Source: Spirochaetota bacterium (GTDB lineage: Bacteria; Spirochaetota; UBA12135; COTS27; JAFLEE01). From it: DNA of 45,305 nt. Shown piece by piece: positions 17,041 to 45,122 of this stretch. How positions within the stretch are numbered: the first letter of the stretch is position 1; each line of letters starts with the position of its first letter. The notes beneath the pieces were generated by a model. That model ran no database searches, was not told the origin of the DNA, and worked only from the letters and a program-made list of their open reading frames with translations. The stretch spans positions 1 through 45,305 of the forward strand of contig JAFLEE010000037.1 of assembly GCA_017302015.1 (NCBI GenBank), given 5' to 3'. Made by a program: the position numbers and the translations under genes.

Positions 17041-17070
17041 ATTTTATCCCCCTTTGGCGGGAAGCCCCAA
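17041..17070 (-). promoter_or_regulatory. Promoter of the GntR/LacI-type regulator
   Basis: On the minus strand, TTGGGG (17070-17065) and TAAAAT (17046-17041) are separated by 18 bp. Transcription would begin close to 17034, only a few bases before the ATG at 17030. Confidence 0.4.
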
Positions 17071-17072
17071 AT

Positions 17073-17115
17073 TTGACAGGGGGCCATCCGGTGGCCTATA
17101 CTGCTATATAACAGT
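17073..17115 (+). promoter_or_regulatory. Near-consensus sigma70 promoter with overlapping 16-bp operator
   Basis: TTGACA at 17073-17078 and TATACT at 17097-17102 are separated by 18 bp. The palindrome ACTGCTATATAACAGT (17100-17115, one mismatched base pair) covers the end of the -10 box and the expected start of transcription near 17109. This is the classic arrangement for repression and is divergent from the GntR/LacI-type gene. It drives the gene starting at 17129. Confidence 0.65.
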
Positions 17116-17128
17116 TGGAGCACCCGGG

Positions 17129-20100: not shown

Positions 20101-20242
20101 GACCGATGCGGGGGCGGGCGACCGGCTGACTTGGAAGCTCGCCTCGGGAGAGAAAACGGTGACCCCGGGGATCTACCTCGCGGTGCTCCGATCCGGGGAA
20201 AAGGATCTCAAGCGCCTCAAAGTGATGGTGTGCCGGCCATGA
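17129..20242 (+). CDS. Secreted NodB-like deacetylase with F5/8C, DNRLRE, PKD, Fn3 and T9SS-like C-terminal domains
   Basis: A 1037-residue secreted protein. A signal peptide (1-20) is followed by a polysaccharide-deacetylase-like domain (about 21-240) with FKLDD (26-30), DHTYSH giving an HxxxH metal pair (89/93), and LQGHPGSW (201-208). Next come an F5/8-type C discoidin domain (about 330-460), a DNRLRE/CBM96-type domain (about 462-627, NTWDETNVTWN), a PKD domain (about 640-725, WSWDFGNG) and a fibronectin type III domain (about 740-828). A linker leads to a C-terminal domain of about 80 residues with ARIYSVSGSLV and PGIYLAVLRSGE, which matches T9SS type A sorting or FlgD-like domains. The sugar target is probably bound through the discoidin and DNRLRE modules. 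The PorV-like gene directly downstream supports type IX-like export. Confidence 0.85.
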   Translation: MLKRTLLLSALLAQLLSPVGLKYVIFKLDDIGGKPGFGYWNSVATTLISNQIHASFGVIGEQAELYGDSFGFWPWFSNALTNHIQFWDHTYSHTDCTVLDAAGQWWQHARNLNLIRRKTGTTLSGYGAPGNTLNGDTVGVVDGLDDCDFWFFGKSNTLKKNLLRLGDMEFPTLVPNYTNFLTNWVKALTNASNAGADYLVLQGHPGSWNLDRWTNFQAILGFLTNQGLSFVTPSEYIEIKTAGMGISNLAPETVFAPGDTVSGQVTGSNAAWSVDLLEGTNLQNLASGSGASFSASLPAVCKITNRVRVTVRSQGFTHCQTHSIVPIGSNDLASSATPTATSQTAGFEAAKALDRSLSSAWRPSGALPQSLTLDFGATKILGGAYLAWKPNLHADLWQLYGSLDGSSWFVVASNDIGGGGGEYVRLAPSNARYLRLTASRSINPNGAVELAEYFAFELLSAYTNLSPSLILAEADASIRSANPNSNFGKNAYLEVQNTTGPLALVRFDLGTNQAASLARAKLYLYPVAGGTGASTTNIAKWVADNTWDETNVTWNLRPALGSTFGTADPFGFRVEFDVTPAVTNAMASGGKVSFAVCGTNSAYVRYTSREEPGYGGTRGPTLELSYERGVISPATNTNLTGPTASFTRAPSGSFAVGTPVVFSNLSTAGSAAITNWSWDFGNGAASNWASNLGLTAAVYTNSGNFTARLTVLDANGLSNTVTVGPFSATNLAVAPTNAVPEAPTNLVAAELSSASVRLSWSHPAPAAARFNLYRSLDATNFLPLATAASNVLEFQDSGLVPFTRYAYRVTATNDIGESAPCAVAAITPARRATLTRAVATVDALQNRVAIKVRLEKNCPEAAALSFRLASASTGSWVDLGAGDVEGAVSIGAGKGAEAASNAWRVPAGFDVSRKVDLMVCASLPGTNADAVIVSNVDLGLLFRLCGDLALACAVNSPWRGQADGITFVNLTRETTARIYSVSGSLVAELKATDAGAGDRLTWKLASGEKTVTPGIYLAVLRSGEKDLKRLKVMVCRP

Positions 20243-30093: not shown

Positions 30094-30435
30094 ATGGAAA
30101 TCACCGAATCGATCTCGCAGATAGACCTTGAACCTTTGACCGAAGCGGACGATGCCGAGGCGGAAAACGCGATCCTCGAAGTACGCCAAGACCTGCTCGA
30201 TGCGCACGCTGTCGGCGCCCTGGAATGGGCGGTGGACCGGCTCCGGGGTTCCGGGCGTTGCGTCTTCATCGATCTCAACGGGGTCGTCTCCGCGGAGCGG
30301 GCCGCCCTTTCCCAATTGACCGGCCTCTGCCGCAAGGCCCGGGGCGCGGGGGTGGAGCTCTATTTCCTCGGCGTCTACGCCCGCATGGCGGAGCGCTTCG
30401 AATCCGCTAGTTTGGGCGATCGGGTCCTTTCCTGA
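30094..30435 (+). CDS. STAS-domain protein 1 (anti-sigma factor antagonist type)
   Basis: A 113-residue single-domain protein. Following an acidic N-terminal tail, ILEVRQDLLDAHAVGALEWA and CVFIDLNGVVSAERAAL match the STAS fold, in which the DLxGV strand is followed by the phosphorylation loop. At the position normally held by the phosphorylated Ser (DSSG in SpoIIAA) my alignment reads SAER, so the Ser appears to be replaced by Glu. It is the first of three STAS genes in tandem (gaps of 22 and 8 bp). Such proteins bind RsbW-type kinases in partner-switching; an RsbW-type domain is encoded 6 kb away. Confidence 0.7.
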   Translation: MEITESISQIDLEPLTEADDAEAENAILEVRQDLLDAHAVGALEWAVDRLRGSGRCVFIDLNGVVSAERAALSQLTGLCRKARGAGVELYFLGVYARMAERFESASLGDRVLS

Positions 30436-30457
30436 AATTCTCCCCCAGGAGCCGAAC

Positions 30458-30814
30458 ATGAACCAGCGCCTCGCCTCCGTTTGCACCGACGCCTCCAGCG
30501 CCACGTGGATCCTCGTGAAGGTGAACGTGCCGGTCATGGGCGATTTCGCCGCCGTGGCCACCGAGGCGATGCTCCTCGGGCAATTGCGCCTGAAGGGGCG
30601 AAACGCCTACCTCGACCTCTCCGCGGTGGTGGGGATGTCCTCCTTCGCGATGGCAAAATTGTCGCTCTTCAAGAAACTCCTCTCGCGCCAGGGTTTCGAT
30701 TTCACCGTGGTCCACCCGGGGGAGGGGATCGCGGGGATGCTCCGCTTCTCCGGCCTCGGGGAACTCCTCAGTTCCCAGGACCGCGACGCCCTGCCGCTGG
30801 CCGCCTTGGCCTAG
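30458..30814 (+). CDS. STAS-domain protein 2 (anti-sigma factor antagonist type)
   Basis: A 118-residue protein with the STAS order of strands: WILVKVNVPVMGDFA, then AYLDLSAVVGMSSFAMAKL, then FDFTVVHPGEGIAGMLRFSGL. The MSSF segment keeps a Ser at the phosphorylation-loop position, so this is the best candidate for a phosphorylatable antagonist among the three. CCAGGAG lies just before the ATG at 30458. It sits between STAS genes 1 and 3 and is probably co-transcribed with them. Confidence 0.75.
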   Translation: MNQRLASVCTDASSATWILVKVNVPVMGDFAAVATEAMLLGQLRLKGRNAYLDLSAVVGMSSFAMAKLSLFKKLLSRQGFDFTVVHPGEGIAGMLRFSGLGELLSSQDRDALPLAALA

Positions 30815-30822
30815 GACCCGTG

Positions 30823-31188
30823 ATGGCCACCTGGGTCGCGGAACCGGAGTTGGCGAGCGAGAGCGGCCCGCCGTTGGTGAGGATCCAGGGTCCCCTGTTG
30901 AATACGGCGGTGGTCGACGCCGTGGAATCGGCGGCTTGGCGGCTGACCGGGGACGGCAGCAGCCTCTGGGTGGACATGGCCCAGGTGCGCGCGGTGAGCG
31001 AGGGCGCCATCGCGAGGCTGCATTATCTGCGTCAATTGGCCAGGCTCCAGGGCCTCGTGATCCTCCTGCGGTCCTGCGCGCCTGAAATCGCCGAAGCCCT
31101 CCGCCTCGCTTCCCTGGAAGATCTGATGGCGAGCAGCAGCCCGGAAGATTCGTCGCGGCGGTCGCCACCGCCTAACGGACCACCATGA
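30823..31188 (+). CDS. STAS-domain protein 3 (anti-sigma factor antagonist type)
   Basis: A 121-residue protein. VRIQGPLLNTAVVDAVESA, LWVDMAQVRAVSEGAIARL and LVILLRSCAPEIAEALRLASL follow the STAS pattern. The loop reads SEGA rather than DSSG, so the usual phosphoserine is not clearly kept. The ATG at 30823, 8 bp after the previous stop, is preferred over the adjacent GTG at 30820. The last 17 bp overlap the 3' end of the convergent leucine-rich-repeat gene. The C-terminal tail is rich in Ser and Pro. Confidence 0.68.
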   Translation: MATWVAEPELASESGPPLVRIQGPLLNTAVVDAVESAAWRLTGDGSSLWVDMAQVRAVSEGAIARLHYLRQLARLQGLVILLRSCAPEIAEALRLASLEDLMASSSPEDSSRRSPPPNGPP

Positions 31189-32044
31189 CCCCCCGGGCCT
31201 CGAGGGCCGCGGCCTGCTTTGGGTCCACCGGGTTGCCCGTGAGATTCACGTACTCGAGCTCGGGCAATTCCAGGAGCGAAGAGAGGTCGCGCACCCGGTT
31301 CTGGGAGAGGTCGAGGATGCGCAGCCGCTTGCAGGCGGAGAGGAGGAGCAGGTCGGTGACCCGGTTCTCGCCGAGGTAGAGTTCCTCGAGGGAGGCGAGT
31401 TCGCCGATCTCGTCGATGTCCTCCAGGAGATTGCGGCTTAAATCGAGGAGCCGCAGATTGGGGAACAGGCCGATGCCCGCGATGTCTTCGATGCCCATGT
31501 CCGGTTGGATGAGTTCCTCGTACTCGGGCCCGCTGAGGCCGTAATCCACCTCGACCTCGACATGGCCGTATTCGGAGAAGCGCAGGGCCTCGGTGATGGA
31601 GAGGTGCTCGAGTTCCTCGTCGACGACTTCCGCGGTGTCGTTATCCTCTTCGAGGCCCGGCGCGTCCGCGGGGTCGGGTTCCCAAAGTTCTTCCAGGCCC
31701 TCGAGGGATTCGGGCGGGAGGGCCGATGGGGGACGGCTTCGGTCGTAGGCCGCCAGGCCGCGGAGTTTTTCCAGATCTCCGCGCTGGCCCAGGCGCACGA
31801 GGCCGTCCACCCAGGCGCCGAAGGCCTTCACCTTATCGGGGTGGACATGCAGGAGGATCTTGGCCAGGAGGGCGCGCGGCGGGAGCGAGGGGTCGAGGCC
31901 GGGAACCAGGCCGGCGATGCGCACGATGAAACCGGCCTGCCGGTGTTTGCCAGACTCGATGAGCCGCGCGGTCAAGCGCGATAGGAAGGCCTCGTCATAG
32001 AGGGGGGCGAGGGTCGGATCGCGGGGGGACTCGGATCGGGTCAT
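31172..32044 (-). CDS. Leucine-rich-repeat protein (SDS22-like repeats)
   Basis: A 290-residue protein. The N-terminal half is helical (FLSRLTARLIESGKHRQAGFI, LLAKILLHVHPDKVKAFGAWV) and is followed by a strongly acidic stretch. The C-terminal third has four SDS22-type leucine-rich repeats: LFPNLRLLDLSRN, LASLEELYLGEN, CKRLRILDLSQN and LPELEYVNLTGNP. Such repeats usually bind another protein. The ATG at 32044 overlaps the stop of the RNA-ligase-like gene (ATGA). It is therefore the last gene of the histidine-kinase operon, and a role as an output or scaffold protein for that pathway is possible. No signal peptide. Confidence 0.8.
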   Translation of the reverse strand: MTRSESPRDPTLAPLYDEAFLSRLTARLIESGKHRQAGFIVRIAGLVPGLDPSLPPRALLAKILLHVHPDKVKAFGAWVDGLVRLGQRGDLEKLRGLAAYDRSRPPSALPPESLEGLEELWEPDPADAPGLEEDNDTAEVVDEELEHLSITEALRFSEYGHVEVEVDYGLSGPEYEELIQPDMGIEDIAGIGLFPNLRLLDLSRNLLEDIDEIGELASLEELYLGENRVTDLLLLSACKRLRILDLSQNRVRDLSSLLELPELEYVNLTGNPVDPKQAAALEARGVMVVR

Positions 32045-32778
32045 CCCGGGCTCCCCCGGTCGTGGGCCGGCGCCCGGAAGGGATCTGGGTCCAACCCCGA
32101 CCAAATGCCGCGCCGAAGATCCCAGGATCCGTGGGTGGATAGGGGCCCGCAAATATCCCGCGCCTCGTAGCTCATCAGCGAAATGCTTTCGACGGGAATG
32201 GGGAGAGGGTGACGGCGGTGCATCGCCCCCATGCGCTCGGAGAGCGTCTGTGTGGGCCAAACGCCGCCGTAGAGTCCGAGGGTGAGATGGGGGGTGTATT
32301 CCGAGTCCTCCATGTCGTCGGGCCGCCGACCGAGGGCCTCGCGCAGGGGCAGGAGAGCTCCTTCCGGATCGTGGATTTCCAGGAAGGGCGCGGTGGTGAA
32401 ACTGCCCACGCCGCCGATCTGGAGGGTGAAGGGGGTGCGCTTGGAGAGGGAGAGGCGGCGGAGGGCGTCCTCGAGTTCGGCGGGGCCCCAGTCTTGGGGC
32501 TGTCGGGGCGCCGCGCTGGGGAAACCGCAGAGGGTGAGGGTCACGTGGGGTTGGCGACGCCAATCGGGCAAGAGTTTTCCCTCGAAGAGCGGGAGGGCCG
32601 CGGCGATGGCTTGGCGCACGGCGGGCGGATCCAAGGCGATCGCCCAGAAGGCGAAGCGCGGGCGCCCCCGGTGCCAAGCCTTAAAATCGCCGGTGATGCT
32701 GGGGATCGTGGCGGGCACCGCCAGGAAGGACGCGCGGGCCCTTCGGAAGCAAACCGGGGGCTCCCCTTCGCGGGTCAC
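32041..32778 (-). CDS. 2'-5' RNA ligase / cyclic phosphodiesterase superfamily protein
   Basis: A 245-residue protein with the two HxTx motifs of the 2H phosphoesterase superfamily: HVTL at 78-81 and HLTL at 164-167, each inside a beta strand (QPHVTLTLCGF, YTPHLTLGLYGG). Members such as ThpR hydrolyse 2',3'-cyclic phosphates or join RNA ends. The spacing of about 86 residues is in the normal range. The start is a GTG at 32778 that overlaps the stop of the kinase gene (GTGA), and its own stop overlaps the next start, so it is translationally coupled on both sides. A link between a sensor kinase and RNA end metabolism is unusual; the functional tie is unknown. Confidence 0.82.
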   Translation of the reverse strand: MTREGEPPVCFRRARASFLAVPATIPSITGDFKAWHRGRPRFAFWAIALDPPAVRQAIAAALPLFEGKLLPDWRRQPHVTLTLCGFPSAAPRQPQDWGPAELEDALRRLSLSKRTPFTLQIGGVGSFTTAPFLEIHDPEGALLPLREALGRRPDDMEDSEYTPHLTLGLYGGVWPTQTLSERMGAMHRRHPLPIPVESISLMSYEARDICGPLSTHGSWDLRRGIWSGLDPDPFRAPAHDRGSPG

Positions 32779-35700
32779 GGCGCTTTGGCGCGGGAGAGCA
32801 GCGCGAAGAGCGCGTCGAGTTCGAAGGGCTTGGCGAGCACCCCGAAGGCCCCCTTGGCCTTGAGGGCCGCCTCATCGAGGTCGATGCGCCCGGAAAGGAA
32901 GATGGTCTTGAGGCCGGGGCGCAGGGCCGAGAGTTCCTGGTGGATGCGCTCGCCCTTCATGTCGGGCAGCAGCAGGTCGAGCAGCACCACCTCGAAGGGC
33001 TCTTCTTGCATGCGGCGGATGGCCTGGCTGCCGGATTCCACCGCGACGGCCCGATGCCCCTGGGCGACGAGCAGTTCCGCCAGGCTATCGCCGAGGGATT
33101 TTTCATCGTCGACGACCAGGATGCGCATGGATGAGCTCCTTTCGTGTTCCTCGCGGGGGGATGGGGGGCCCGGGAACGGGGCGGAAACGTCCGCGCCCAC
33201 CGGCAAGGAGACGGTGAAGGCCGCCCCTTTCCCCTCGGTGCTCTCGACGGTGATCTCGCCGCCGTGCTCCTGGATGCTGCGGTAGCTCACCGAAAGGCCG
33301 AGCCCGGTGCCCTGGATGGCCAGGTGGTCCCCGGCGAAGGCGCCCTTGGTGGTGAAGAAGGGGGTGAAGAGTTTGGTGCGGGTCTCGTCGTTCATGCCGA
33401 TGCCATCATCGGCGACCTGGAGGAAGACCCGCTCGCCCTCGGCCCAGGTGCGCACGGTGAGCGTCCCCCCGCCCCGGGGCTTCATGGCGTGGCGCGCGTT
33501 GATGACGAGGTTGAGGAGCACCTGCTCCAATTGGCCGACGTCCGCAGCGATCTCGGGGAGCCCGGAAAAGGCGCGCACCACCCGGATATTCTCGAGGCCG
33601 AGCGGCCCCTCCTGGAGTTTGAGGACCGAGTTGACGATCGCCTCGGCTTGGCAGCGCACCTTGCGCGGGGGCTTGGGCCTCGCGAAGGCCATGAGGTTGG
33701 CCACGAGTTCCGCCCCGCGCCGCGTCTGCTCCTGCACGGTGTCGAAGACGCGCTCCATGCGCTCCGGCGGGAGGGGTTCGCCGGGGTGGGCGGGCTTGCG
33801 GGCGGCCAGGCGGATGACGGTGAGGATATTATTGAACTCGTGGGCCACGCCGGCGGCGAGTTGCCCCACCGCCGAGAGGCGCTCGGACTGGACCAATTGC
33901 TCCCGCATGGAGCGTTCGGCCCGCTCGGCCTCGAGGCGGTCGGTCAAGTCGGTGAACGTCGCGACCACGGCCGTGGGGGAGGGGGAGCCCTTCTCGAAGA
34001 GCGGCTCGGTGTTCACGGAGATCCAGCGGCGGGCGCCGCCGGGGAGTTCGACGATGAGTACCACGTCGCGACCCGGCACGCCGCTTTTGAGGGTGGCGAG
34101 GGCGGGCTGCTCCTCAGGCGCCAAGGGTTCCCCATTGGAATGCAAAAGACGCCACCGCGGGTCGAGGTTGACCCTCCCGAGGAGTTCGTCCTCGGAGTTG
34201 AGGCCGAGGATGCGCACGGCGGTGGGGTTGCAAGTGGTGATCTTCCCGTCGGGGCCGTGCACCACCACCCCCTCGGCCATGGCGGCGACGACCGAGCGGT
34301 AGCGCTCCTCCGATTGGACGAGATGGCGCTCGTCTTCCTTGCGCTGGGTGATATCGAGGAAGATCGCGGCCATGGTGTCGGGGCCCGTGCGGAACGCGTA
34401 GACTTCGAAGGCGCCCCGCACGCGCTCGTCCTCGTAGGTGATCCACTCGGTGCTCCAGGAAACCCCGGAGCGGCAGATCTCACGGTAGCGGTCGGCGACG
34501 CCGTTGGGCTCGTTGGCGGGGAAGGCCTCGCCGATCGTCTTGCCGATGTATTGGCGGTTATCGACGCCGAGGATCGCGTCGGCGGCCGGGTTGGCGCCGA
34601 TGAACACCAGGCGATTGCCCGGCTCGAGGCGGTAGAGGTGCATGCCCATGGGCGAGGCCTCGACGATGCTTCGGAATTTCTCCTCACTGTCGCGGACCTT
34701 CTCCTGCATGCGGTACTCGGAACTCACGTCGCGGTAGACGAGCACCACCCCCTCGATGGTGCCCCGGGAATTGAAGATGGGCGCGCCGCTATCGGCGATC
34801 TGGCGCTCGGTGCCGTTCTTCGAGATGAGGAGGGTGTGGTTGGCAAGGCCCACCACTTTCCCGGTCGCCATGACCCGCTCGACGGGGTTCTCGGCGAGTT
34901 GGCGGGTGAGGCCGTTGATGATGCGGAAGACGGCCGTCAGCGGTTGCCCGATGGCCTCGTCCCGGCGCCAGCCGGTGAGGGCCTCGGAGATCGGATTGAG
35001 GTCGGTGACGAGGCCCCGGGTATCGGTGGTGATCACCCCGTCGCCGATGGAATGGAGGGTGATGGCGAGCTTCTCGCGGCTGCGATCGAGTTCGAGGGTG
35101 CGCCGCCGCACGGTCCGCCGGAGCAGGAGCATGAAGGCGGAGACGATGAAGAGGAGGACCAGGAGCGAGCCGACGAGGGCCAGGAGCCAACGGGGCGCGC
35201 GCTGCCACCACGGGCGCTCCTGGCCGTACCATTTCGTCCAGAGTTCGCGGTGCGCGTCGCCGAGGTTCAAGAGCGCGTCCTCCAGGCGGGCGTGGACCTG
35301 GGGCAGATCGCGCCGCACGGCGATGGAGCGCTTGAGCTCGAGGAGCGGGGGTTGGAGGAAGCGCACGCGGCCCTGTTCGAGGCCCAATTGCCGCAGCAGC
35401 GAGGCGATCAGCTCCGCCGGGCCGACGAAGGCATCGACCTTGCCGGCGAGGAGATTGAAGAGGCCGTCGTGGAACGTCTCGCACTCTTGTACCCGGATTT
35501 CGGGATGCTCGAGCAGCGTGGCCCGCGCCTGGCTTCCGCGCATCACCACGGCGGTGCGACCGTGGAGGTCCTCCAAATTATTGAGGTCGCGGGTTTGGGA
35601 GCGGATGACTAGGGAAATGGTCGCCGTCTCGATGGGCGAGGTGAAGAGGTAGCGGTGACTGCGATCGGCGGTGATGGCCATGATGGGGCAGAGGTCCACC

Positions 35701-36008
35701 CGACCCTCCTGGAGGAGTTGCTCTATTTGGTCCCAGGTTGTGACCGATGTCCATTCGACCTCATAGCCGGTCTCGCGGGCCAAAAGGTTGAAGACATCCA
35801 CACTCAGCCCCGATGGTTTCTTGGTGGAGGGATCCAAGTAGGAACTGGGATACAGGTCGGCGAGGATCACCGCTTTGAGGGTCTTCATCGGCGACGCCGG
35901 CGCAAGGATCGTCAAGGACAGGAGGAGGAATAGGAGGGAACACCCCGGAATTCGAGGGGGCCGACCGGGGCGGAAAGGGCAAAAATACCGGGGGGACCTA
36001 TGGTTCAA
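32775..36008 (-). CDS. Hybrid sensor histidine kinase with periplasmic substrate-binding domain
   Basis: A 1077-residue membrane protein. A signal peptide (about 23-40) precedes a SBP_bac_3 periplasmic binding domain (about 43-262), as in BvgS-type sensors, and a transmembrane helix (about 273-297). Three PAS domains follow (about 313-430, 442-555, 567-695). The kinase core has the phospho-acceptor His723 in VAHEFNN, the N-box LLNLVINARH, DDGIG (867-871) and GTGLGLSV. A C-terminal receiver (about 961-1075) has VVDDE, the phospho-acceptor Asp1011 in LLDLLLPD and Lys1060. The TTG start at 36008 fits a minus-strand promoter TTGTCA (36064-36059), 17 bp, TACCAT (36041-36036). A ribosome binding site precedes Met961, so a free receiver may also be made. 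Confidence 0.92.
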   Translation of the reverse strand: MNHRSPRYFCPFRPGRPPRIPGCSLLFLLLSLTILAPASPMKTLKAVILADLYPSSYLDPSTKKPSGLSVDVFNLLARETGYEVEWTSVTTWDQIEQLLQEGRVDLCPIMAITADRSHRYLFTSPIETATISLVIRSQTRDLNNLEDLHGRTAVVMRGSQARATLLEHPEIRVQECETFHDGLFNLLAGKVDAFVGPAELIASLLRQLGLEQGRVRFLQPPLLELKRSIAVRRDLPQVHARLEDALLNLGDAHRELWTKWYGQERPWWQRAPRWLLALVGSLLVLLFIVSAFMLLLRRTVRRRTLELDRSREKLAITLHSIGDGVITTDTRGLVTDLNPISEALTGWRRDEAIGQPLTAVFRIINGLTRQLAENPVERVMATGKVVGLANHTLLISKNGTERQIADSGAPIFNSRGTIEGVVLVYRDVSSEYRMQEKVRDSEEKFRSIVEASPMGMHLYRLEPGNRLVFIGANPAADAILGVDNRQYIGKTIGEAFPANEPNGVADRYREICRSGVSWSTEWITYEDERVRGAFEVYAFRTGPDTMAAIFLDITQRKEDERHLVQSEERYRSVVAAMAEGVVVHGPDGKITTCNPTAVRILGLNSEDELLGRVNLDPRWRLLHSNGEPLAPEEQPALATLKSGVPGRDVVLIVELPGGARRWISVNTEPLFEKGSPSPTAVVATFTDLTDRLEAERAERSMREQLVQSERLSAVGQLAAGVAHEFNNILTVIRLAARKPAHPGEPLPPERMERVFDTVQEQTRRGAELVANLMAFARPKPPRKVRCQAEAIVNSVLKLQEGPLGLENIRVVRAFSGLPEIAADVGQLEQVLLNLVINARHAMKPRGGGTLTVRTWAEGERVFLQVADDGIGMNDETRTKLFTPFFTTKGAFAGDHLAIQGTGLGLSVSYRSIQEHGGEITVESTEGKGAAFTVSLPVGADVSAPFPGPPSPREEHERSSSMRILVVDDEKSLGDSLAELLVAQGHRAVAVESGSQAIRRMQEEPFEVVLLDLLLPDMKGERIHQELSALRPGLKTIFLSGRIDLDEAALKAKGAFGVLAKPFELDALFALLSRAKAP
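33136..33142 (-). promoter_or_regulatory. Internal Shine-Dalgarno before the receiver domain
   Basis: AAAGGAG on the minus strand lies 7 nt before the in-frame ATG at 33128 (Met961 of the hybrid kinase). This would allow initiation of a stand-alone receiver protein of 117 residues from the same mRNA. Confidence 0.45.
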
Positions 36009-36064: not shown

Positions 36065-36169
36065 GGGAAACCCGGCGGTCGTGGCTCGGGCTCTCCCGAC
36101 CATCCGTCCTCGTGGAGGCCCCGTGGGGCGAGGACTCGGCGCCCTTGGAATCAACCCTGGTATCTCGGG

Positions 36170-36220
36170 TTGTAGACGTTTGCCCCTTGACCCATAATTA
36201 GGGGTAGAATGGGGTAGGAT
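36170..36220 (+). promoter_or_regulatory. Promoter and tandem 10-bp repeat upstream of the XRE-RsbW-HD-GYP gene
   Basis: TTGTAG (36170-36175) and CATAAT (36193-36198) are separated by 17 bp. Directly downstream lie two tandem near-identical units, GGGGTAGAAT (36201-36210) and GGGGTAGGAT (36211-36220), one helical turn apart over the predicted transcription start. They could be autoregulatory sites for the gene's own XRE domain. Confidence 0.4.
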
Positions 36221-36264
36221 GCGTCTCGGGGCTCCGTCCCGCCAAACGCCCGCCTAAGAAAAAG

Positions 36265-37632
36265 ATGGACCACCAGGAAGCTTTTCGAAAGACGCTCTGC
36301 TCCCTGAGGAAATCCACGGGCCTCAACCAGTTGGATTTCGCGGCGCGGGCCGGGCTTTCCCATAGCTATTATTCCGACCTCGAATCGCCCTCCAAGGCGA
36401 CCAACCCCACCTTCGAAGTGCTCGTGAAACTGGCCGGCGCCCTCGGGTTGGGCCTCACCGATCTGCTTTCCGCGGTGGATTCCACCGTCGATCCGGAGAC
36501 CCTGGGGAAACTCTTCGGCCGCAAGCCGATCCTCTTCCGCCAATTCACCGGGACGGCCGTCGGCGACCGCAACCGCATCGCCGCGGCGGTCACCGACCTC
36601 ATGAAAGAGCGGCATTTCGCCGAGGACGATATCGAGAAGACCCGCATCGCCTTCGGCGAGGTCTACCTGAACGCCGTCATCCACGGGAATAAGAACGACG
36701 CGGGGAAGGAGGTCGTCGTGAGCGCCTTCCTCACCCCCGACGAGGCCCGCATCGCGGTGCGCGACCAGGGAGAGGGCTTCGACGCGACCGCGCTCCCGTC
36801 GTCGGTCGACCGCGACGGGCTCATTCGTCAACTCGACGCCCAAGACCAGACGGCCTTCCTCCACGGCCGCGGCCTCCATATCGCGCGCCTCTACATGGAT
36901 AACGTGCGCTTCGCCGGCAAGGGCAACCTGGTGGAGATCACCAAGTTCAACACCCAACTCGCCGAGATCGACAACCCCATGCTGCGCCTGCAGCGCATGA
37001 CGATCTCGAGTTGGGCCGAACTGGTGGAGTACCGCGACCGCACCACCTCCGAGCACCTCGACCGCCTGCCCCACCTCGTCGAGCGCATCGCCGCGAGCCT
37101 CGCCGGCAAGCCGGGGTTCAAGAGCTACCTCACCCCGGGCTATATCCGCGACCTCAAGACCGCCAGCATCCTCCACGATATCGGCAAGGTGGGCATCTCC
37201 GACACGGTGCTCCTGAAGCCCGGCGCGCTCACCCCCGAGGAGTTCGCCCAGATCAAGAAGCACGTCTCCATCGGCGGGAATTTCCTCGAGAAGATCCGGG
37301 GGGAATGGCGCAGCGCCTTCCCCGACCTCAACAGCTATTTCGACATCGCCGTGAACGTCGCCCTCTACCACCACGAGCGCTGGGACGGCCAGGGTTACGT
37401 CCAGGGGCTGAAGGGGAACGAGATCCCCGTCTCCGCGCGCATCGTGGCCGTCGCCGACGTCTACGACGCCCTCACCTCCGACCGCCCCTACCGCGGGGGC
37501 ATGCCCCACGCCGACGCCTGCGCCTTCATCCGGGAGAAATCGGGCAGCATGTTCGACCCCGCCGTGGTGGAGGGATTCCAGCGCGTCGAGCAGGAACTCG
37601 CCACCGCGGGCGAACTCGCCGAACGGGATTGA
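36265..37632 (+). CDS. Three-domain signalling protein: XRE HTH, RsbW-type ATPase and HD-GYP domain
   Basis: A 455-residue cytoplasmic protein. Residues 6-70 are an XRE/Cro-type helix-turn-helix (LRKSTGLNQLDFAARAGLSH, LVKLAGALGLGLTDLL). Residues about 88-228 are a HATPase_c_2 (RsbW/SpoIIAB-type) domain with the N-box GEVYLNAVIHGN (131-142), VRDQGEGFD (165-173) and GRGLHIARLY (201-210). Residues about 245-445 are an HD-GYP-type domain with HDIGKVG (304-310), HHERWDGQGY (369-378) and DRPYRGG. The GYP signature reads GYV. Known HD-GYP domains hydrolyse cyclic-di-GMP, and RsbW-type domains bind or phosphorylate STAS partners. Combining DNA binding with both activities is uncommon; the order suggests a transcription factor controlled by partner-switching and a second messenger. 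Three STAS genes lie about 5 kb away. Confidence 0.88.
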   Translation: MDHQEAFRKTLCSLRKSTGLNQLDFAARAGLSHSYYSDLESPSKATNPTFEVLVKLAGALGLGLTDLLSAVDSTVDPETLGKLFGRKPILFRQFTGTAVGDRNRIAAAVTDLMKERHFAEDDIEKTRIAFGEVYLNAVIHGNKNDAGKEVVVSAFLTPDEARIAVRDQGEGFDATALPSSVDRDGLIRQLDAQDQTAFLHGRGLHIARLYMDNVRFAGKGNLVEITKFNTQLAEIDNPMLRLQRMTISSWAELVEYRDRTTSEHLDRLPHLVERIAASLAGKPGFKSYLTPGYIRDLKTASILHDIGKVGISDTVLLKPGALTPEEFAQIKKHVSIGGNFLEKIRGEWRSAFPDLNSYFDIAVNVALYHHERWDGQGYVQGLKGNEIPVSARIVAVADVYDALTSDRPYRGGMPHADACAFIREKSGSMFDPAVVEGFQRVEQELATAGELAERD

Positions 37633-37683: not shown

Positions 37684-40600
37684 CTAGTCGAGGCGTCGGA
37701 TCGAGATAGAGGCGAGAGCCGGGTTCCCCGAGGCGCCCCTCCATTCCAGCCTCAAATCCCCGCCATTGCACCGCCCCCCGAACCAGGCGTCGGCCACCTC
37801 GAGGCGCAGCGTCTTCCAGATGCCGCTCGAGCCCAAGGCGACCTTCCCCGCCTCCTTCCAGGCCCCGGGGTTGCCCCGGGAAACCAGCACCGACTCGTCC
37901 GAAGAATCGTAGACGACGCGAAGTTCGCCGCCTCCCTCGTCGAAATAATCCAGGGACAGCGCCACCCGCCGGGCGCGGCCGTTCTTGAAGCCGGGGAATT
38001 CCACCGTGGCGTACATCATGTGGGTGTCCTTGGCGTGGGCCGGGCGAACCACGCTTTCCCAGGCCGCCCGCCCGCCCCTCACGGCGGGGACGTTCTCCGA
38101 TTCGCCGTTCTTCTGGACGACCGCCATCCCGATGGCCTCGACGCGCTTCCCGAGGGTCGCGGAGACGACCGAGGTGCCTTCGGGAAGGGGCCGCGACCTC
38201 GTGGTGCCCTGCCGTTCCCGCACCTGGCTCCGGTCGCCCTCGACGGAAATCCCGTACGGAGTGATGTTCCCGACGAGCGCGCACGGGGCCGCGGCCCGCC
38301 GCAGGATCAGTTCCTTTCCGCCGGAGGGATTGCGCTGGAGCGTGGCGCCCACGAGGGAGAGGCTGCCCCCGTCGACGACGAAGGGCCCGTAGTCGAGGAA
38401 GTTCGCGAGCTCGAAGTGGAGGGCGCCGCCGCGGATGCGGGCGGAAGTCTCGGGTTGGGCCCACAGGAGCGTGTTGTAGAAGCGGGCCTCGGATTTGAAG
38501 GACGGACCGACTTCCACGTATTTTTTGTCGGTGGTGGCCATGCACACGAGTTCGGCGTTGATGAAGTCGAGCCCCTCGGGGGCGCTCGCGTCGATGACGG
38601 CGGAGACCTTGGAACCGTCGGTGCCGTGCCCGAGGATGATCCCCGAGGCGCCCTTGCCGTTCTCCTCCACGAAATGCAGGCCGTAGAGGGACCCGAAGAC
38701 GAAGTTCTGGAATTGGAGTTCGCCCGGGCAATCCCCGAATTGGAAGGCGTCGAGGTTCTCCTTCTGGAACCCCCAGACGCCGGGGTTCCCCTTCAGCATG
38801 TCCTTGGGCTTGTTCTCGGGCCAGGGGGAGCGGCCCCAATAATGGGGGTTGAATTGGGCGTTGCGCACCTCCCCGCCGCGCGAACCCCCGCCGACGGCCA
38901 GGCCCACCTTGAGGGGCGCGCCCGCGACGTAATCGAGGAGGTGGCCGTCGCAGCGGAAAGTCTTGAAATCCAGGAGGTACCAGGGATTGAGGGCGGCGAG
39001 GTTGACGACGTAGATGCCGTGGCCGCGGCCCTGGACGGTGGGCGGGTAGGGGGTGAAGGCGTCGTCCTTCTGTTCCGGGTACATCACCGTCACGCCGCGC
39101 AGTCCGCTTAGGGCCTCCATCGCGATGGCCGGGGGCGCGGCCACATCCCCGCGTCCCGCGAAGAACCTGAGTACGCTGCCCTTGCCGAGGGTATGGTGGG
39201 GCACGTCGTAGACCCCGCGCAATTCCACGCCGGGGGGGATGTGCAGGTTCCCGCGGACCGCATAATTCCCGCCGGGGAGGAAGACGAGGCCGCCTCCCCG
39301 CTTGCCGGCCGCATCGAGGGCCCGCTGGATGGCGGCGGTGTCGTCTTGGGCGCCGTCGCCGCGCGCGCCGTAGGGGGCCTCGGTGGCGACGAAGAGTTCG
39401 GTCCTGGCCGGTTTGCGGGGACGGTCCCCCGGCCAAGCGAGGGCGGGGATTCGGGAAGGCGGCACGGCCTCGTCGCTCACGCGCACCAGGGGGGACCCGC
39501 TCCGGTCCACGGCGCGCTTGCCAGCGGGGAACCGACATCCGGCCACGATGGCAACGCTCACCCCCTCTTCGAGGGAGAGCGCTTCGCCGGGTCCGCTGAA
39601 ATCGCAATCGAGGAAGGAGGCCTGTCCCGCGACGCGCTTCACCCCGCCCTCGAAACGGCAGCGCTGGAAGAGGGCGCTGGAACGGGCGGTGCCGTCGAGG
39701 AGGGCCGCGGCGACGCCCCCCCGGACCGTGGAGCTATGGAGGAGCAAGGCGGCGGTGAACGAAGGGAGCGTCGCGATCCCGTACTCGCTCCCCTCGAAGA
39801 CGCACGCGGTGAAGGCGAGGCCGATGGCGTTGGCATCGACGACCCGCAGCGCGGTGCGGCACCCCTCGATGCGGATGGCGTAATACTGGGCGTTGGGCGC
39901 GCCCTTGGGGGAGGTGAGGATCTCGAACCCCGTCTGGTAGCCGCGCACCGAGATGAAGGAGCCGTACTCCCAATCGCTGCGGAGCATGCGGAGCCCGGTG
40001 CCGTGGTCGAGCATCCACCGGGCATGGGGCCCGCCCTTTTCCGGGGCTCCGGGCAAGCCGCTCGCGCTCCAATAATCGGGGGAGAGGTGGATATTCTCGA
40101 GCCGGCCGATGTCGGTGGTCACGTCGAATTGGATGCCCGTGGAGAGGGGGGATCCGAAGACGCTGCGCACGAAATGGAGTTCGTTCCATTCCGGTCCGAT
40201 ACGGATGCCCTGGTAGGGATTCACGAGGGTGAGGTTCTCCGCCGTGGCGTTATCGCCGCCGGCCTGCTTGATGCACCAGGGGTAGGGGACGATGGCGCGG
40301 GCGTCCTGCTCGGGGTACCAGACGGCGAGGTCTTTCACCCCCGAGGAGGGCTGGAGCAGGAGGAAGGGTTCCCCGTTGGAGTCGCCGCGCCCGGCGAAGG
40401 CCATGAGCACGGTGCCCGAAACCGGCGCGCCATTGGACGGCGAGGCCCACTCGCCGCGCAGGGTCACGGAGGTCGGGAGGGTGAGGGAACCCCGGATGGC
40501 GTAGCGGCCCGCGGGGGCGAAGACCGTGCCCCCGCCGCGTTTGGCCATGGCATCGAGGGCGGCCTGGAAGGGGGCGGTATCATCGCTGACGCCGTCGCCT

Positions 40601-41226
40601 TTCGCGCCGAAATCGCCCACGCGGAAGCCGGAGAGGACCACGTCCATGGTCGGGGCGCGGGTCGCCTCGACCCGCCACGTCGGCGGGGGCGCGGGGATGG
40701 CGGCGGGGTCCTTCCATTCGGTGATGGCGAGGGCGCCCAGGGCGACGTCGGCGTCCCCGGGGAAGAGGATGCGGAAATCGCTCCCATTGCAGCGGCCGGC
40801 GAAGCGGGCGTCCTTCAGGACCACGATGGCCGTCTTCCATTTGTTCGCGCCGGTGAGCGAGACGAGGCCCATGGGCTTGAACGCGCCGGGAAGCTTGGCT
40901 TCGTCCATGGAGTCGTACTCGAGGCGGAGTTCACCCTTTCCCGCGTCGAAATAATCCAGGCGCAAGCGGACGGAGGGCATGGCGCCGGCCTTGAAGGCCC
41001 CGTCGATCACCTTGAAATAGAGATAGCGCCCCGGGGCTTTTCCCGCCACGCAAGCCACGGCGTCGCGCCCTTCGCGGGTCGCGGCGACCCCCCTGCCCTC
41101 GTCCGTTTCGGGCACGAGGGAAAGCCCCCGGGCTTCGGGCGCGGCGCCCAGGATCAGGGAGATTTCGGCGGCGGGCAGGGGCGCGAGGGCGGCGAGGAAA
41201 GCGAGGGCGAGGATCATTCGATTCAT
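37684..41226 (-). CDS. Secreted protein with two pectate-lyase-3 beta-helices between related jelly-roll domains
   Basis: A 1180-residue protein. A signal peptide (1-20) is followed by a jelly-roll-like domain (about 65-170: RLDYFDAGKGELRLEYDS, RFAGRCNGSDFRILF). The first pectate_lyase_3-type right-handed beta-helix starts at about 201 (FRVGDFGAKGDGVSDDT) and a second at about 610 (PYGARGDGAQDDTAAIQ). A second copy of the jelly-roll domain closes the protein (about 1085-1180: LDYFDEGGGELRVVYDS, WFGGRCNGGDLRLEW). PF12708 helices occur in polysaccharide lyases, GH28-like enzymes and phage tailspikes; the catalytic residues cannot be assigned by eye. The ATG at 41226 overlaps the TGA of the upstream hydrolase gene, so the two are coupled. 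Confidence 0.85.
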   Translation of the reverse strand: MNRMILALAFLAALAPLPAAEISLILGAAPEARGLSLVPETDEGRGVAATREGRDAVACVAGKAPGRYLYFKVIDGAFKAGAMPSVRLRLDYFDAGKGELRLEYDSMDEAKLPGAFKPMGLVSLTGANKWKTAIVVLKDARFAGRCNGSDFRILFPGDADVALGALAITEWKDPAAIPAPPPTWRVEATRAPTMDVVLSGFRVGDFGAKGDGVSDDTAPFQAALDAMAKRGGGTVFAPAGRYAIRGSLTLPTSVTLRGEWASPSNGAPVSGTVLMAFAGRGDSNGEPFLLLQPSSGVKDLAVWYPEQDARAIVPYPWCIKQAGGDNATAENLTLVNPYQGIRIGPEWNELHFVRSVFGSPLSTGIQFDVTTDIGRLENIHLSPDYWSASGLPGAPEKGGPHARWMLDHGTGLRMLRSDWEYGSFISVRGYQTGFEILTSPKGAPNAQYYAIRIEGCRTALRVVDANAIGLAFTACVFEGSEYGIATLPSFTAALLLHSSTVRGGVAAALLDGTARSSALFQRCRFEGGVKRVAGQASFLDCDFSGPGEALSLEEGVSVAIVAGCRFPAGKRAVDRSGSPLVRVSDEAVPPSRIPALAWPGDRPRKPARTELFVATEAPYGARGDGAQDDTAAIQRALDAAGKRGGGLVFLPGGNYAVRGNLHIPPGVELRGVYDVPHHTLGKGSVLRFFAGRGDVAAPPAIAMEALSGLRGVTVMYPEQKDDAFTPYPPTVQGRGHGIYVVNLAALNPWYLLDFKTFRCDGHLLDYVAGAPLKVGLAVGGGSRGGEVRNAQFNPHYWGRSPWPENKPKDMLKGNPGVWGFQKENLDAFQFGDCPGELQFQNFVFGSLYGLHFVEENGKGASGIILGHGTDGSKVSAVIDASAPEGLDFINAELVCMATTDKKYVEVGPSFKSEARFYNTLLWAQPETSARIRGGALHFELANFLDYGPFVVDGGSLSLVGATLQRNPSGGKELILRRAAAPCALVGNITPYGISVEGDRSQVRERQGTTRSRPLPEGTSVVSATLGKRVEAIGMAVVQKNGESENVPAVRGGRAAWESVVRPAHAKDTHMMYATVEFPGFKNGRARRVALSLDYFDEGGGELRVVYDSSDESVLVSRGNPGAWKEAGKVALGSSGIWKTLRLEVADAWFGGRCNGGDLRLEWRGASGNPALASISIRRLD

Positions 41227-44200
41227 TTTCCGGACTCCTTGGGGACGCCGAGCGTCACGTTCCATTTCTCCCCGAACCAGGCGCGGTCCAAGGCCGTCAT
41301 CTCGAGGACGAGCGGGGTGTCCTTCGCGATCCCCGGCGTGAGGGTGAACTCTCCGGTTTCTCCGTCGCCGAGGGAAGGGACATCCCGGAGGATCGGGGCG
41401 CGGAAGAGGATGCCGCCGGTGCGGGCGGAGAGGTAGACGCCGCCCTTCCCCGGCTGGCGGGCGGGAGCGAGCCAGGCGGCCTCGCCCAGATTGCCGATGG
41501 AGGCCTTCGCCCGCACCGGCTTGTCCGGGGCGACGACGACGCGGGCGCCGGACTTCACCACCTCCACCCATTCCCCGGTGGCGGAGAGGATGGAGATCCG
41601 GTTGAACTCGGCGTTGAGGTATTTGGGGGGATTGGCGCCATTCAACGGAAGGTTCCCCACGGCCACGAGCGGGGTATTGGCCGAGTCGGTGCCGGTGCCC
41701 GCGCTGCGGACGCCCAACGTTTTTCCCGCGAGGCGGGCCTTGCGCCAGGCATCCTTGCCTTCGTGGAAGCAGAAGTACCAGTAGCCGCCGGGGTGGGCGT
41801 CCCGGTCCACCGTAAGCCATTCGTCGGGGGCCTTGCGCTCGCGCGGCCCCGTGATGCGCTCGGCCCAATCGCGCAAAACCTGGGCGGCGGGGCGGGGGCG
41901 ACCGTCCGGATGCAGCACGCCGAAATCGCTCTTCTCGTTGACCCGGTAGCCGCCCGGCCACCACCAGGGCGAGAGGCCGTTGGCCCCCGCCTCCATCACC
42001 ATCCGGTAGAAGAGTTCGTTGTATTGGCCCTGGATGCGCACGGACTCCTCGTCGGGGGCCATGGCGGTCTCGTTCCACACGCTGCGGCCGAACTCGGCCC
42101 AATAGACCGGCTTGTCCCCGGTGGTGTGGCGCACGTAGCGGGTGATGAAGCCCGCCACGTCGTAACCGTCGGGGTCGTTCTTGATGGTATAGCCCTCGGG
42201 CGAGATGAAATCGACGTGCTTCACCGCGCCGGTGAGGCCGAAATCGTAGGGAAGGGTATTGCCCTGGCGGAAACTGATGAGGTGCTTGGGGTCGGCGCGG
42301 CGCAGGGCGCGGTGGGCGTCGTTCCACAGGCGGCTGGTGAGGTCGTCCATGAAGCGCCGGTAGGCGGCAGAATAGGCGCGCCACTCGCCGGCCTCGGCGA
42401 GTTCGCGGTCCTGGGGGGAACGCACGGTCTGGCCGTCCCCGAGGGCGCCATAGCGCCAGTCGCGGCGAGCGGCGTCGGCGCTGCCGTAGCGTTCCACAAT
42501 CCACTGGTTCCAGGCGCCGTCCCAACGCTTGCGGTTCTTGGGATGGAAGACGTGGTTCCCAGCCTCCCAACTGATATCGTAGGCGAAGAGGGCGGGGTCG
42601 TCGGCCAGGCGCGCCTGTGCGATGAGGTTCGTGGCCAGGCGCTCGTCGAAATCCGTGGGGTTGGCGCCGGAGAGGAAACCGTTGACCTTCAGGCCATGGG
42701 CGGCGCAGCGGCGCATGAAATCCCGCAGGTTCGGGATCTGGCGCAGGCCCCCCATCTGGATGCTCACGAGGTTGATCCCCATCCCCTTCATCTGGGAGAG
42801 GTCGCGCTCGACCACCTCGGGGCAATAGGCGCCGGGGCTCAGCCAGCCCTCGTTATAGGGCCCGGGTTCCAGGGCGGCCGCATCCCGCGGCCAATAGTTC
42901 ATGCCGTGGGGGTACCATTTCTTGCCGGCGCACCAGAAATCGCCGCGTTCCACGGTGACGAAATCCCCAGGGGCGGCGCGCTTGGCCGCCAGGAGCGCAC
43001 CGTCGTGGGCGATGGCATCGATGGATTTCCCGTCCACCAGGAGTTCCGTCTTCACGCGGAAGGCCGGGGCCCCGGGAATCCAAGGGGCGCTGGCGCGGCC
43101 GACGCCGTCCCGGGGGATGCGTACGGGGATCTCCTTTTGGAAGAGGGTCTTGCCGGCGGCCTCCACCGTAAAGCGCACGAGGGCTTGGGCCTCGAGGGCG
43201 CTTCCGTTTTGGATCCAGGCGCCGAGTTCGGCGGGGGCCCCGGGGTCGTAGGAGAAGCGGTCGGCGCCGGCTTCGAAGAGGAAGAGGCCCCGTTGCATCC
43301 GCTTGGTGGCGGCGAGAATCAACTTCTGCGTCAGTTCATCGGACCAGGGGGTCGTGATCATGGCGCAGGCGGCGCCCGGATTGGGGGAGCCGGCGTTGAG
43401 CATGAGCCAAGCCGCCGCCCCGCGTTCTTCGCCATCGCGATCGAGGGCCGTCACGAGGGGAATCCAGCGGAAGAGGTTCGCCCCGGTGAATCCCTGCCCC
43501 TTGGGCCGCGGGTAACAAGAAAGCATCCCAATGGGAGGGGATGGCAAGGCGCCCAGGTCCAACCAGGGGACGTCGGCGGCCTGGAGCGTCTTGATCCCGG
43601 TGAGCGGGTAGACCTTATAGCTCGGGGACATGCCTTCCAGGACCGGCGGCTTGGAGAGCATTTGGCGTTGGACTTTTTCGGAGAGCGGGCCCTTGGCGCT
43701 TCCCACCTCATCGATCCAGAAGCGGTGGCGACCGGGGGCCAGGTTGAGCGGGCCCGCCACGAGGCCGATATTGAAGCGGGCCAGATCGGCCGCGTTCAGC
43801 CCATCCCCGGCCCCGCCGCGCTTTCCCCGGGTGGGGGAATCGTGCCAGAAGGAAAAGCGGCGCAGGGGGATGACGAGGTAGGTCCACTCGGTGCCGATGG
43901 ATGCGGGGCAGAGCCAGCGGGATCCGTCTTTCTCCACGAGTTCCAGCATGAGGCGCGGGGTGGAGGCGTCGCCCTTGGCCCAAAGGCAAAGCGCATTGTC
44001 CTCGGCGGAAAGGCCGCCCTCGAGCGCCGTGTAGAAGGTGGCCCAGCCGCCGAGCTTCGCCACTTCGTAGGCCAGGCAGCGGCCCTTGATGCCGCCGTCC
44101 GCGCCTTTGACCGCCGCCCCGCCGGCCTCGTCGTCGGTGGAGCGTTTCCAATCCAATTCCTTTTCGAAATCCAGGAGCACCCGGCGCGTGGGTGTCTTGG

Positions 44201-45122
44201 AAAGCGCGGCCTCGAGGCCGGCCTGGTCGACCCAGGCGTCGGCGCCATGGACGGGCACCCGGTAGGTGGTTTTGGAGAAGGCCGGTCCGCCGGTGAAAAT
44301 GAGTTTTCCGCCCAATTGCACCCAGGTCATGAGCGGGTCCCAGCCATCGGCGGGATAGGTCTCGCAGCCGGGGACTATATATAGAGAGAATTTTTCGGGA
44401 TCCAAGGCCCCGCCCAGGATCGCTTCGTCCGTGCGCAGCCCCACCACCTTGAGGCCTGATTTCTCCAGGGACTTTTCGAGGGCCGTCGTATCGAGGCCCG
44501 GCTGGCGGTAGATCGCCACGGTGCGAGCCGCCTCGGCGGCCGCGCCCGCAGACTCCCCTCCCAGGGGCACGACGCTCACGCGGCCGAAGCGGCATTGCTT
44601 GGCGTTATTATTGCCCAGGGCGACGCCGCCCCGGGGTATGGGGTCGGGATCGATGGCCTCCAGGGCCGGCCGGCCGTCCACTCGGATTTCGATCTTGCCG
44701 CCGCGGACCTCCACGAGGACCTCGTGCCAGGTTCCCGCGTCGAGTTTCAAATCGGCGGAAGCGAAATTGGGTTTGCGCGCGCCGGCGCGGGTGCGCACCA
44801 ATTCCAATTTGCCCCCGGTGTGGAGCAGGACCATGTAGTGGTTTTCGTCGTCGGCGTGGCGGAAGAAGAGGGTGGCCGTATTCCAGGTTTCCTTCCCCGC
44901 CTCGTCGGTGCGCAGGCGGGCGCTGACTCGGTAATCCTTCCAGCGGATGGACCCGGCGAGGAACTTGCCCGACCCGACGGAGAGAAGTTCCCCATCGGCG
45001 GCGCTCCATTTCCCACCCGAGGCGCGCCAGGCGGCGGTGCCGAGGGACCAGTCGGTCTCGAGGAGCGATTGGGCGCCCAGAGGAACGGTGAGCAGGGCGA
45101 GGAGGAGGGGGATCGTTTTCAT
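41223..45122 (-). CDS. Large secreted clan GH-A-like glycoside hydrolase with LamG/DUF1080-type domain
   Basis: A 1299-residue protein. A signal peptide (1-18) is followed by a concanavalin-like domain (about 20-190: ATLFFRHADDENHYMVLL, LDAGTWHEVLVEVRGG), as in DUF1080/LamG proteins. A glutamine-amidotransferase-like or Rossmann segment comes next (about 205-275), then jelly-roll modules. The TIM barrel begins near residue 739 (WYPHGMNYWPRD). Candidate catalytic Glu residues lie near 850 (DISWEAGN) and near 1009 (VYWAEFGRS), the order expected for clan GH-A (GH5/GH42-like). WNQWIVERYGSADAARRDW resembles GH42-type beta-galactosidases. The ATG at 45122 has AAGGTAGG upstream and a consensus promoter. 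The exact family and substrate are uncertain. Confidence 0.83.
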   Translation of the reverse strand: MKTIPLLLALLTVPLGAQSLLETDWSLGTAAWRASGGKWSAADGELLSVGSGKFLAGSIRWKDYRVSARLRTDEAGKETWNTATLFFRHADDENHYMVLLHTGGKLELVRTRAGARKPNFASADLKLDAGTWHEVLVEVRGGKIEIRVDGRPALEAIDPDPIPRGGVALGNNNAKQCRFGRVSVVPLGGESAGAAAEAARTVAIYRQPGLDTTALEKSLEKSGLKVVGLRTDEAILGGALDPEKFSLYIVPGCETYPADGWDPLMTWVQLGGKLIFTGGPAFSKTTYRVPVHGADAWVDQAGLEAALSKTPTRRVLLDFEKELDWKRSTDDEAGGAAVKGADGGIKGRCLAYEVAKLGGWATFYTALEGGLSAEDNALCLWAKGDASTPRLMLELVEKDGSRWLCPASIGTEWTYLVIPLRRFSFWHDSPTRGKRGGAGDGLNAADLARFNIGLVAGPLNLAPGRHRFWIDEVGSAKGPLSEKVQRQMLSKPPVLEGMSPSYKVYPLTGIKTLQAADVPWLDLGALPSPPIGMLSCYPRPKGQGFTGANLFRWIPLVTALDRDGEERGAAAWLMLNAGSPNPGAACAMITTPWSDELTQKLILAATKRMQRGLFLFEAGADRFSYDPGAPAELGAWIQNGSALEAQALVRFTVEAAGKTLFQKEIPVRIPRDGVGRASAPWIPGAPAFRVKTELLVDGKSIDAIAHDGALLAAKRAAPGDFVTVERGDFWCAGKKWYPHGMNYWPRDAAALEPGPYNEGWLSPGAYCPEVVERDLSQMKGMGINLVSIQMGGLRQIPNLRDFMRRCAAHGLKVNGFLSGANPTDFDERLATNLIAQARLADDPALFAYDISWEAGNHVFHPKNRKRWDGAWNQWIVERYGSADAARRDWRYGALGDGQTVRSPQDRELAEAGEWRAYSAAYRRFMDDLTSRLWNDAHRALRRADPKHLISFRQGNTLPYDFGLTGAVKHVDFISPEGYTIKNDPDGYDVAGFITRYVRHTTGDKPVYWAEFGRSVWNETAMAPDEESVRIQGQYNELFYRMVMEAGANGLSPWWWPGGYRVNEKSDFGVLHPDGRPRPAAQVLRDWAERITGPRERKAPDEWLTVDRDAHPGGYWYFCFHEGKDAWRKARLAGKTLGVRSAGTGTDSANTPLVAVGNLPLNGANPPKYLNAEFNRISILSATGEWVEVVKSGARVVVAPDKPVRAKASIGNLGEAAWLAPARQPGKGGVYLSARTGGILFRAPILRDVPSLGDGETGEFTLTPGIAKDTPLVLEMTALDRAWFGEKWNVTLGVPKESGK

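Follow-up and report, generated by a model that had tools for sequence, protein, structure and literature searches.

The gene at positions 36265..37632 (+) of the DNA analysed here, a window of 45,305 nucleotides from contig JAFLEE010000037.1 of a Spirochaetota bacterium (assembly GCA_017302015.1), is a real, well-formed and apparently rare fusion of an XRE-family helix-turn-helix domain, an RsbW-type ATPase domain and an HD-GYP domain, built from known parts throughout but in a new combination of domains and with a predicted function. The open frame runs without interruption from an ATG at 36265 to a TGA ending at 37632 and encodes 455 residues. A first-pass annotation had placed the three domains in one protein and in this order, which is borne out by three Pfam matches above their gathering cut-offs, namely HTH_3 at residues 14-67 (36304..36465 (+), E 1.3e-9), HATPase_c_2 at residues 105-227 (36577..36945 (+), E 2.7e-18) and HD_5 at residues 277-434 (37093..37566 (+), E 1e-26). 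All of the motifs that it had quoted are likewise found: NAVIHGN at 136-142, DQGEGFD at 167-173 and GRGLHIA at 201-207 in the ATPase domain, and HDIGK at 304-308 and HHERWDGQGY at 369-378, followed by V379, in the HD-GYP domain.

The GC content at third codon positions (GC3) reaches about 0.90 over the gene, and this bias keeps to one frame across all three domains, which indicates a single coding frame free of frameshifts between the domains. An antisense frame (36151-37509) is open as well, and the domain matches lie on the sense frame; a chance or shadow reading frame was ruled out by the three independent profile matches together with the in-frame GC3. Structure was predicted in two separate runs because a mixed full-length alignment had contained misplaced ATPase sequences. 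The model of the XRE-ATPase part, built from six aligned sequences, reached a mean pLDDT of 69, and in the second model the ATPase region was mostly below 65 while residues 271-440 were mostly at least 90. Given this only moderate model confidence in the ATPase region, the arrangement of the domains relative to one another cannot be read from the models.

The C-terminal domain belongs to the HD-GYP family by both profile and fold. PA4781 is the closest solved HD-GYP relative (phmmer E 1e-39), and its structure 4r8z is matched by Foldseek with an E-value of 5e-14, a TM-score to the target of 0.86 and 39% identity. Seven of the eight metal ligands of the PmGH set are present (H264, H304, D305, H333, H369, H370 and D398), and the catalytic residues D258 and K308, which correspond to D183 and K225 of PmGH, are retained; H264 and D258 fall just N-terminal of the HD_5 match. 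The domain departs from the canonical pattern in two places, of which the first-pass annotation had recognised one, the change of GYP to GYV (G377-Y378-V379), and missed the other, the replacement of the eighth ligand, which binds the third metal (E185 in PmGH), by T260. The E/D-T-G motif thus reads T260-T-S, which places the domain outside the trinuclear E/D-T-G subfamily. PA4781 (4r8z) and PmGH (4mcw) share with the fusion protein the HD-GYP fold, the core metal ligands and the catalytic Asp and Lys, but they differ from it in having the GYP/GFP proline and, in PmGH, E185, and neither carries an XRE or RsbW domain.

What these two departures may mean for catalysis can be gauged from published PmGH mutants. 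The P286A exchange did not substantially affect activity and E185A reduced it without eliminating it, while D183A and K225A abolished it (PMC4159591), which suggests that GYV is tolerated and that T260 lowers activity. Taken with a review that describes one-step hydrolysis by two-metal HD-GYPs (PMC8177086), the mutants lead one to expect a weak or one-step enzyme, or else a sensor, and the loss of the E185 ligand makes an HD-GYP of reduced activity or of purely sensory function possible. The alternative in which the domain has become a sensor of c-di-GMP and is no longer useful as an enzyme, the bound ligand shifting the dimer and thereby DNA binding by the XRE domain or the choice of partner by the ATPase, must be considered, even if it strikes us as rather unlikely. 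It would account for the lost E185 ligand, the lost GYP proline and the long branch of the domain described below, T260 and the long branch together being what relaxed catalysis would be expected to leave; moreover, the fold matches include a c-di-GMP-bound HD-GYP structure (DvhD, 9rbz), and a paper on the DvhD system refers in its title to c-di-GMP receptor regulation. However, a pure sensor need not keep the remaining metal ligands and both catalytic residues, all of which are in place, and PmGH variants with the corresponding exchanges, P286A and E185A, still hydrolyse c-di-GMP (PMC4159591).

The middle domain is a Bergerat ATPase of the SpoIIAB/RsbW type, with all of the motifs of its ATP site intact: the N-box (E132/N136), the G1 box (D167-x-G169-x-G171) and the G2 box (G201-R-G203). 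The columns of these three motifs are invariant in an alignment with stand-alone RsbW relatives. Those relatives, from Acidobacteria and Omnitrophota, are encoded directly before a STAS gene with a canonical D-S-S-G site, and further relatives of the ATPase in the phylum of the host occur as the last domain of receiver-SpoIIE-type proteins or behind a receiver; a tree of the HATPase domains gave no resolved branching. The NCBIfam equivalog models for RsbW match with E-values of 1e-10 to 1e-8 and below their cut-offs (NF003144 scores 41 bits against a cut-off of 145), so the domain is to be regarded as a relative of RsbW/SpoIIAB rather than as an orthologue. Foldseek searches with the XRE-ATPase model returned LvrC, SpoIIAB and RsbW-RsbV complexes, the best PDB fold match being LvrC (9qih). 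In line with what had been proposed from the motifs, these profile matches, key residues and fold matches indicate that the middle and the last domain are both likely to be competent.

LvrC of Leptospira is a receiver-RsbW protein that has been proposed to act as a regulated anti-sigma factor (PMC13269768). Like the fusion protein, it holds a spirochaete RsbW/SpoIIAB-type domain behind an N-terminal regulatory domain; unlike the fusion protein, it has a receiver in the place of the XRE domain and carries no HD-GYP domain. The classical RsbW/SpoIIAB anti-sigma kinases share the N-box, G1 and G2 motifs and the fold with the middle domain, but they are stand-alone proteins usually encoded beside STAS and sigma factor genes, whereas here the domain is internal and has no adjacent sigma factor gene; the scanned genes of the window gave no match to a sigma factor.

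The host genome (5.4 Mb in 165 contigs, 93% complete) is rich in GGDEF and STAS domains, with 19 and 24 matches, and has about a dozen HD-GYP matches beyond the fusion gene. The spirochaete flagellar protein FlaA (PF04620) occurs in 25 of the 26 genomes made up of the host and its relatives but not in any of 14 control genomes, which marks the host, whose GC content is high, as a spirochaete. Other RsbW-type ATPases are few in the host: one lies behind a SpoIIE-like region (L039) and one is a stand-alone protein of 176 residues (L043), while two further candidates above the cut-off (L040 and L041) were rejected as they read as ordinary histidine kinases. The ratio of 24 STAS matches to about three RsbW-type ATPases looks unusual for partner switching.

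Three STAS genes lie 5-6 kb from the fusion gene (30094-31188). The first (30094..30435 (+), STAS E 1.1e-6), 6 kb away, has an Arg at the phosphoserine position, the second, a STAS-like protein (30458..30814 (+), STAS E 4e-4, below the cut-off), keeps the Ser, and the third (30811..31188 (+), with a provisional start codon, STAS E 9.2e-8) has a Glu, so that in an alignment with the other STAS proteins of the host genome one of the three retains a Ser at this position. The trio is consecutive on the forward strand with no kinase or phosphatase gene beside it, and a leucine-rich-repeat protein (31172-32002 (-)) adjoins it on the opposite strand. Its members are possible, though not obvious, partners of the fusion protein.

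In a second alternative, the middle domain is the main output, acting as an anti-sigma factor and STAS kinase, while the XRE domain only autoregulates the gene and the HD-GYP domain adjusts c-di-GMP on its own or serves as the input. The intact RsbW-type motifs and fold fit such a role, LvrC offers a precedent for a spirochaete regulator whose output is an RsbW domain (PMC13269768), and the same kind of domain in HsbR and CrsR binds RpoS (PMC6482189). Still, neither a sigma factor gene nor a STAS/SpoIIE operon stands beside the fusion gene among the genes scanned, and a protein that bound DNA only incidentally would be unusual in having gained an XRE domain; we therefore regard this alternative as improbable.

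The N-terminal domain is an HTH_3-fold helix-turn-helix of the XRE family, with PDB sequence and fold matches to the N-terminal domains of DdrO, C.BclI and CapH; the fold matches to C.BclI and DdrO have weak E-values and TM-scores to the target of about 0.7. Matches to PHROG and PADLOC are limited to this domain and its immediate surroundings, for which reason an assignment of the gene as a phage repressor or defence gene was rejected. The gene shares its upstream intergenic region with a divergent gene for a hybrid histidine kinase (32775..36008 (-)), to which Pfam assigns SBP_bac_3, three PAS, HisKA, HATPase_c and receiver domains, the solute-binding domain being of the periplasmic type and the receiver C-terminal. 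A repeat search of the region upstream of the fusion gene gave a near-palindrome, ACCCATAATTAGGGGT, at 36190..36205 (no strand; 7 of 8 pairs), as a candidate autoregulatory operator, followed by a third half-site, GGGGT, at 36211-36215. The consensus ACCCNTAATTANGGGT has one exact copy in the whole 5.4 Mb genome, which is the one upstream of the fusion gene; a second operator-like copy (G000:C1) was discarded since it sits within an apparent coding region. The 45 kb window contains 36 palindromes as good as that at 36190-36205, which makes the latter a weak operator candidate that is not statistically strong.

Elsewhere, the window (GC 67%) resembles a carbohydrate-use region. It encodes a large protein with CBM96, F5/8 type C, PKD and fibronectin domains (17054-20239 (+)) and, within 37684-45122 (-), two further large proteins.

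The ancestry of the HD-GYP domain lies among receiver-HD-GYP proteins. Its nearest relatives found are two such proteins of one family and from the same phylum (L009:1030-2142 and L010:1477-2577), of the RpfG/PA4781 type and about 50% identical to it over the HD-GYP domain, and in the tree the fusion HD-GYP is sister to them with a clade support of 95/90. A five-residue insertion that precedes the HH motif is common to all three, and none of them has the GYP proline, the motif reading GYA and GYT in the two relatives, so that the proline may have been lost before the fusion arose. The two relatives have E-T-G, with the E185 ligand retained, and a receiver, where the fusion protein has T-T-S and its XRE-ATPase part. 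The branch of the fusion HD-GYP is long, 1.04 compared to 0.09 and 0.30 in the sister proteins. Given the sister relationship, the receiver of such a receiver-HD-GYP protein was probably exchanged for an XRE-RsbW module, which is the simplest history.

That the combination is unusual, as the first-pass annotation had held, agrees with every search made for it. No second copy of the XRE-RsbW-HD-GYP architecture was found in two overlapping spirochaete sets, of 296 and 393 genomes, in 396 genomes of an acidobacterial phylum, in 31 genomes of the class of L009 and L010, on plasmids or phages, or on viral contigs, including 80 HD-GYP loci. A GTDB scan with one genome per species did not find it either, and the rarity holds for the samples searched, which are not exhaustive, the GTDB scan being limited by its short back-translated patterns. 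XRE-RsbW proteins lacking the HD-GYP domain were also absent from the same genome, plasmid, phage and viral searches, and the literature searches gave no description of the architecture. A candidate RsbW-HD-GYP fusion (L036), whose match reached back to residue 209, proved to be a receiver-GAF-HD-GYP protein. One plasmid match (H5) spans residues 121-445 and is annotated as an HD-domain phosphohydrolase.

Occurrence in this 165-contig assembly only is also what an assembly join, or an accidental fusion confined to this lineage, would produce, with domains that do not act together, and the XRE part has a GC3 of 0.79 compared to 0.92 for the remainder of the gene (Fisher p 0.001), but we give this explanation little credence, because the frame is uninterrupted, the ATPase retains its key residues and the HD-GYP domain nearly all of its own, and the shift in GC3 is modest. 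The 5' ends of genes often differ in GC3. The lower value of the XRE part could reflect a separate source or, alternatively, such a 5'-end effect.

The reading that we favour, although we hold it at somewhat less than even confidence, is that of a cytoplasmic regulator in which an XRE domain and an RsbW-type domain have replaced the receiver, with the RsbW-type domain as input, autoregulation through the XRE domain and breakdown of c-di-GMP by the HD-GYP domain. The protein would most likely work as a dimer. Its RsbW-type domain would stand in for the lost receiver as the input, binding ATP together with either a STAS protein or a sigma factor, and its occupancy would alter how far apart the flanking domains lie. 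The paired N-terminal XRE domains would bind the candidate palindrome that precedes their gene, between it and the histidine kinase gene, and could thereby repress or tune both genes, while the C-terminal HD-GYP domain would use a two-metal site to degrade c-di-GMP, with pGpG as the probable product. Counting against this mechanism are the 5 kb that separate the gene from the nearest STAS genes, two of the three having no Ser to be phosphorylated at that position, the lost E185 ligand together with the long HD-GYP branch, and the weakness of the palindrome.

Precedents exist for the pairwise links that the favoured mechanism would require. In Streptomyces, WhiJ, BldB and AbaA are XRE, DUF397 and RsbW-like proteins that are encoded together (PMC10294661); the XRE regulator and the RsbW-like HATPase act in one pathway, but they are separate proteins, BldB is the partner and there is no HD-GYP domain. 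In Pseudomonas, the HsbR/HsbA/HsbD partner switch feeds c-di-GMP synthesis, an RsbW-type kinase and a STAS protein being tied to c-di-GMP metabolism much as they may be here (PMC6482189), but again through several proteins, with a diguanylate cyclase instead of a phosphodiesterase and without an XRE domain. The stronger proposition, that STAS/sigma partner switching, sequence-specific DNA binding and the hydrolysis or sensing of c-di-GMP all control one another in a one-protein switch, is possible but on balance unlikely in our estimate, and with the architecture in one genome only, the coupling of DNA binding, partner switching and c-di-GMP would stand without support from co-conservation. 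The first-pass annotation had envisaged a circuit within one protein, in which a STAS antagonist and a second messenger together might set DNA binding; this can be reasonably inferred, and goes no further than that, given that no orthologue of the fusion was found, that most of the nearby STAS proteins lack the phosphoserine position and that T260 has replaced the E185 ligand. Whereas the sequences show the three domains, their key residues and the receiver-HD-GYP ancestry of the last one, gating through a dimer, the operator, the choice of partner and true enzyme activity are inferred.

So far, the links known between partner switching and c-di-GMP signalling run via separate proteins. The fusion would unite DNA binding, partner switching and c-di-GMP in one expressible protein, and if the proposed coupling is true, a one-protein switch joins three signalling systems that otherwise reside in separate proteins. 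The fusion makes the gating of DNA binding or of a phosphodiesterase by an RsbW-type domain directly testable, and the combination of GYV with T260 provides a natural test of which HD-GYP features are required for catalysis. For the spirochaetes, such a protein would extend the recent finding on LvrC that RsbW domains serve as the outputs of regulators.
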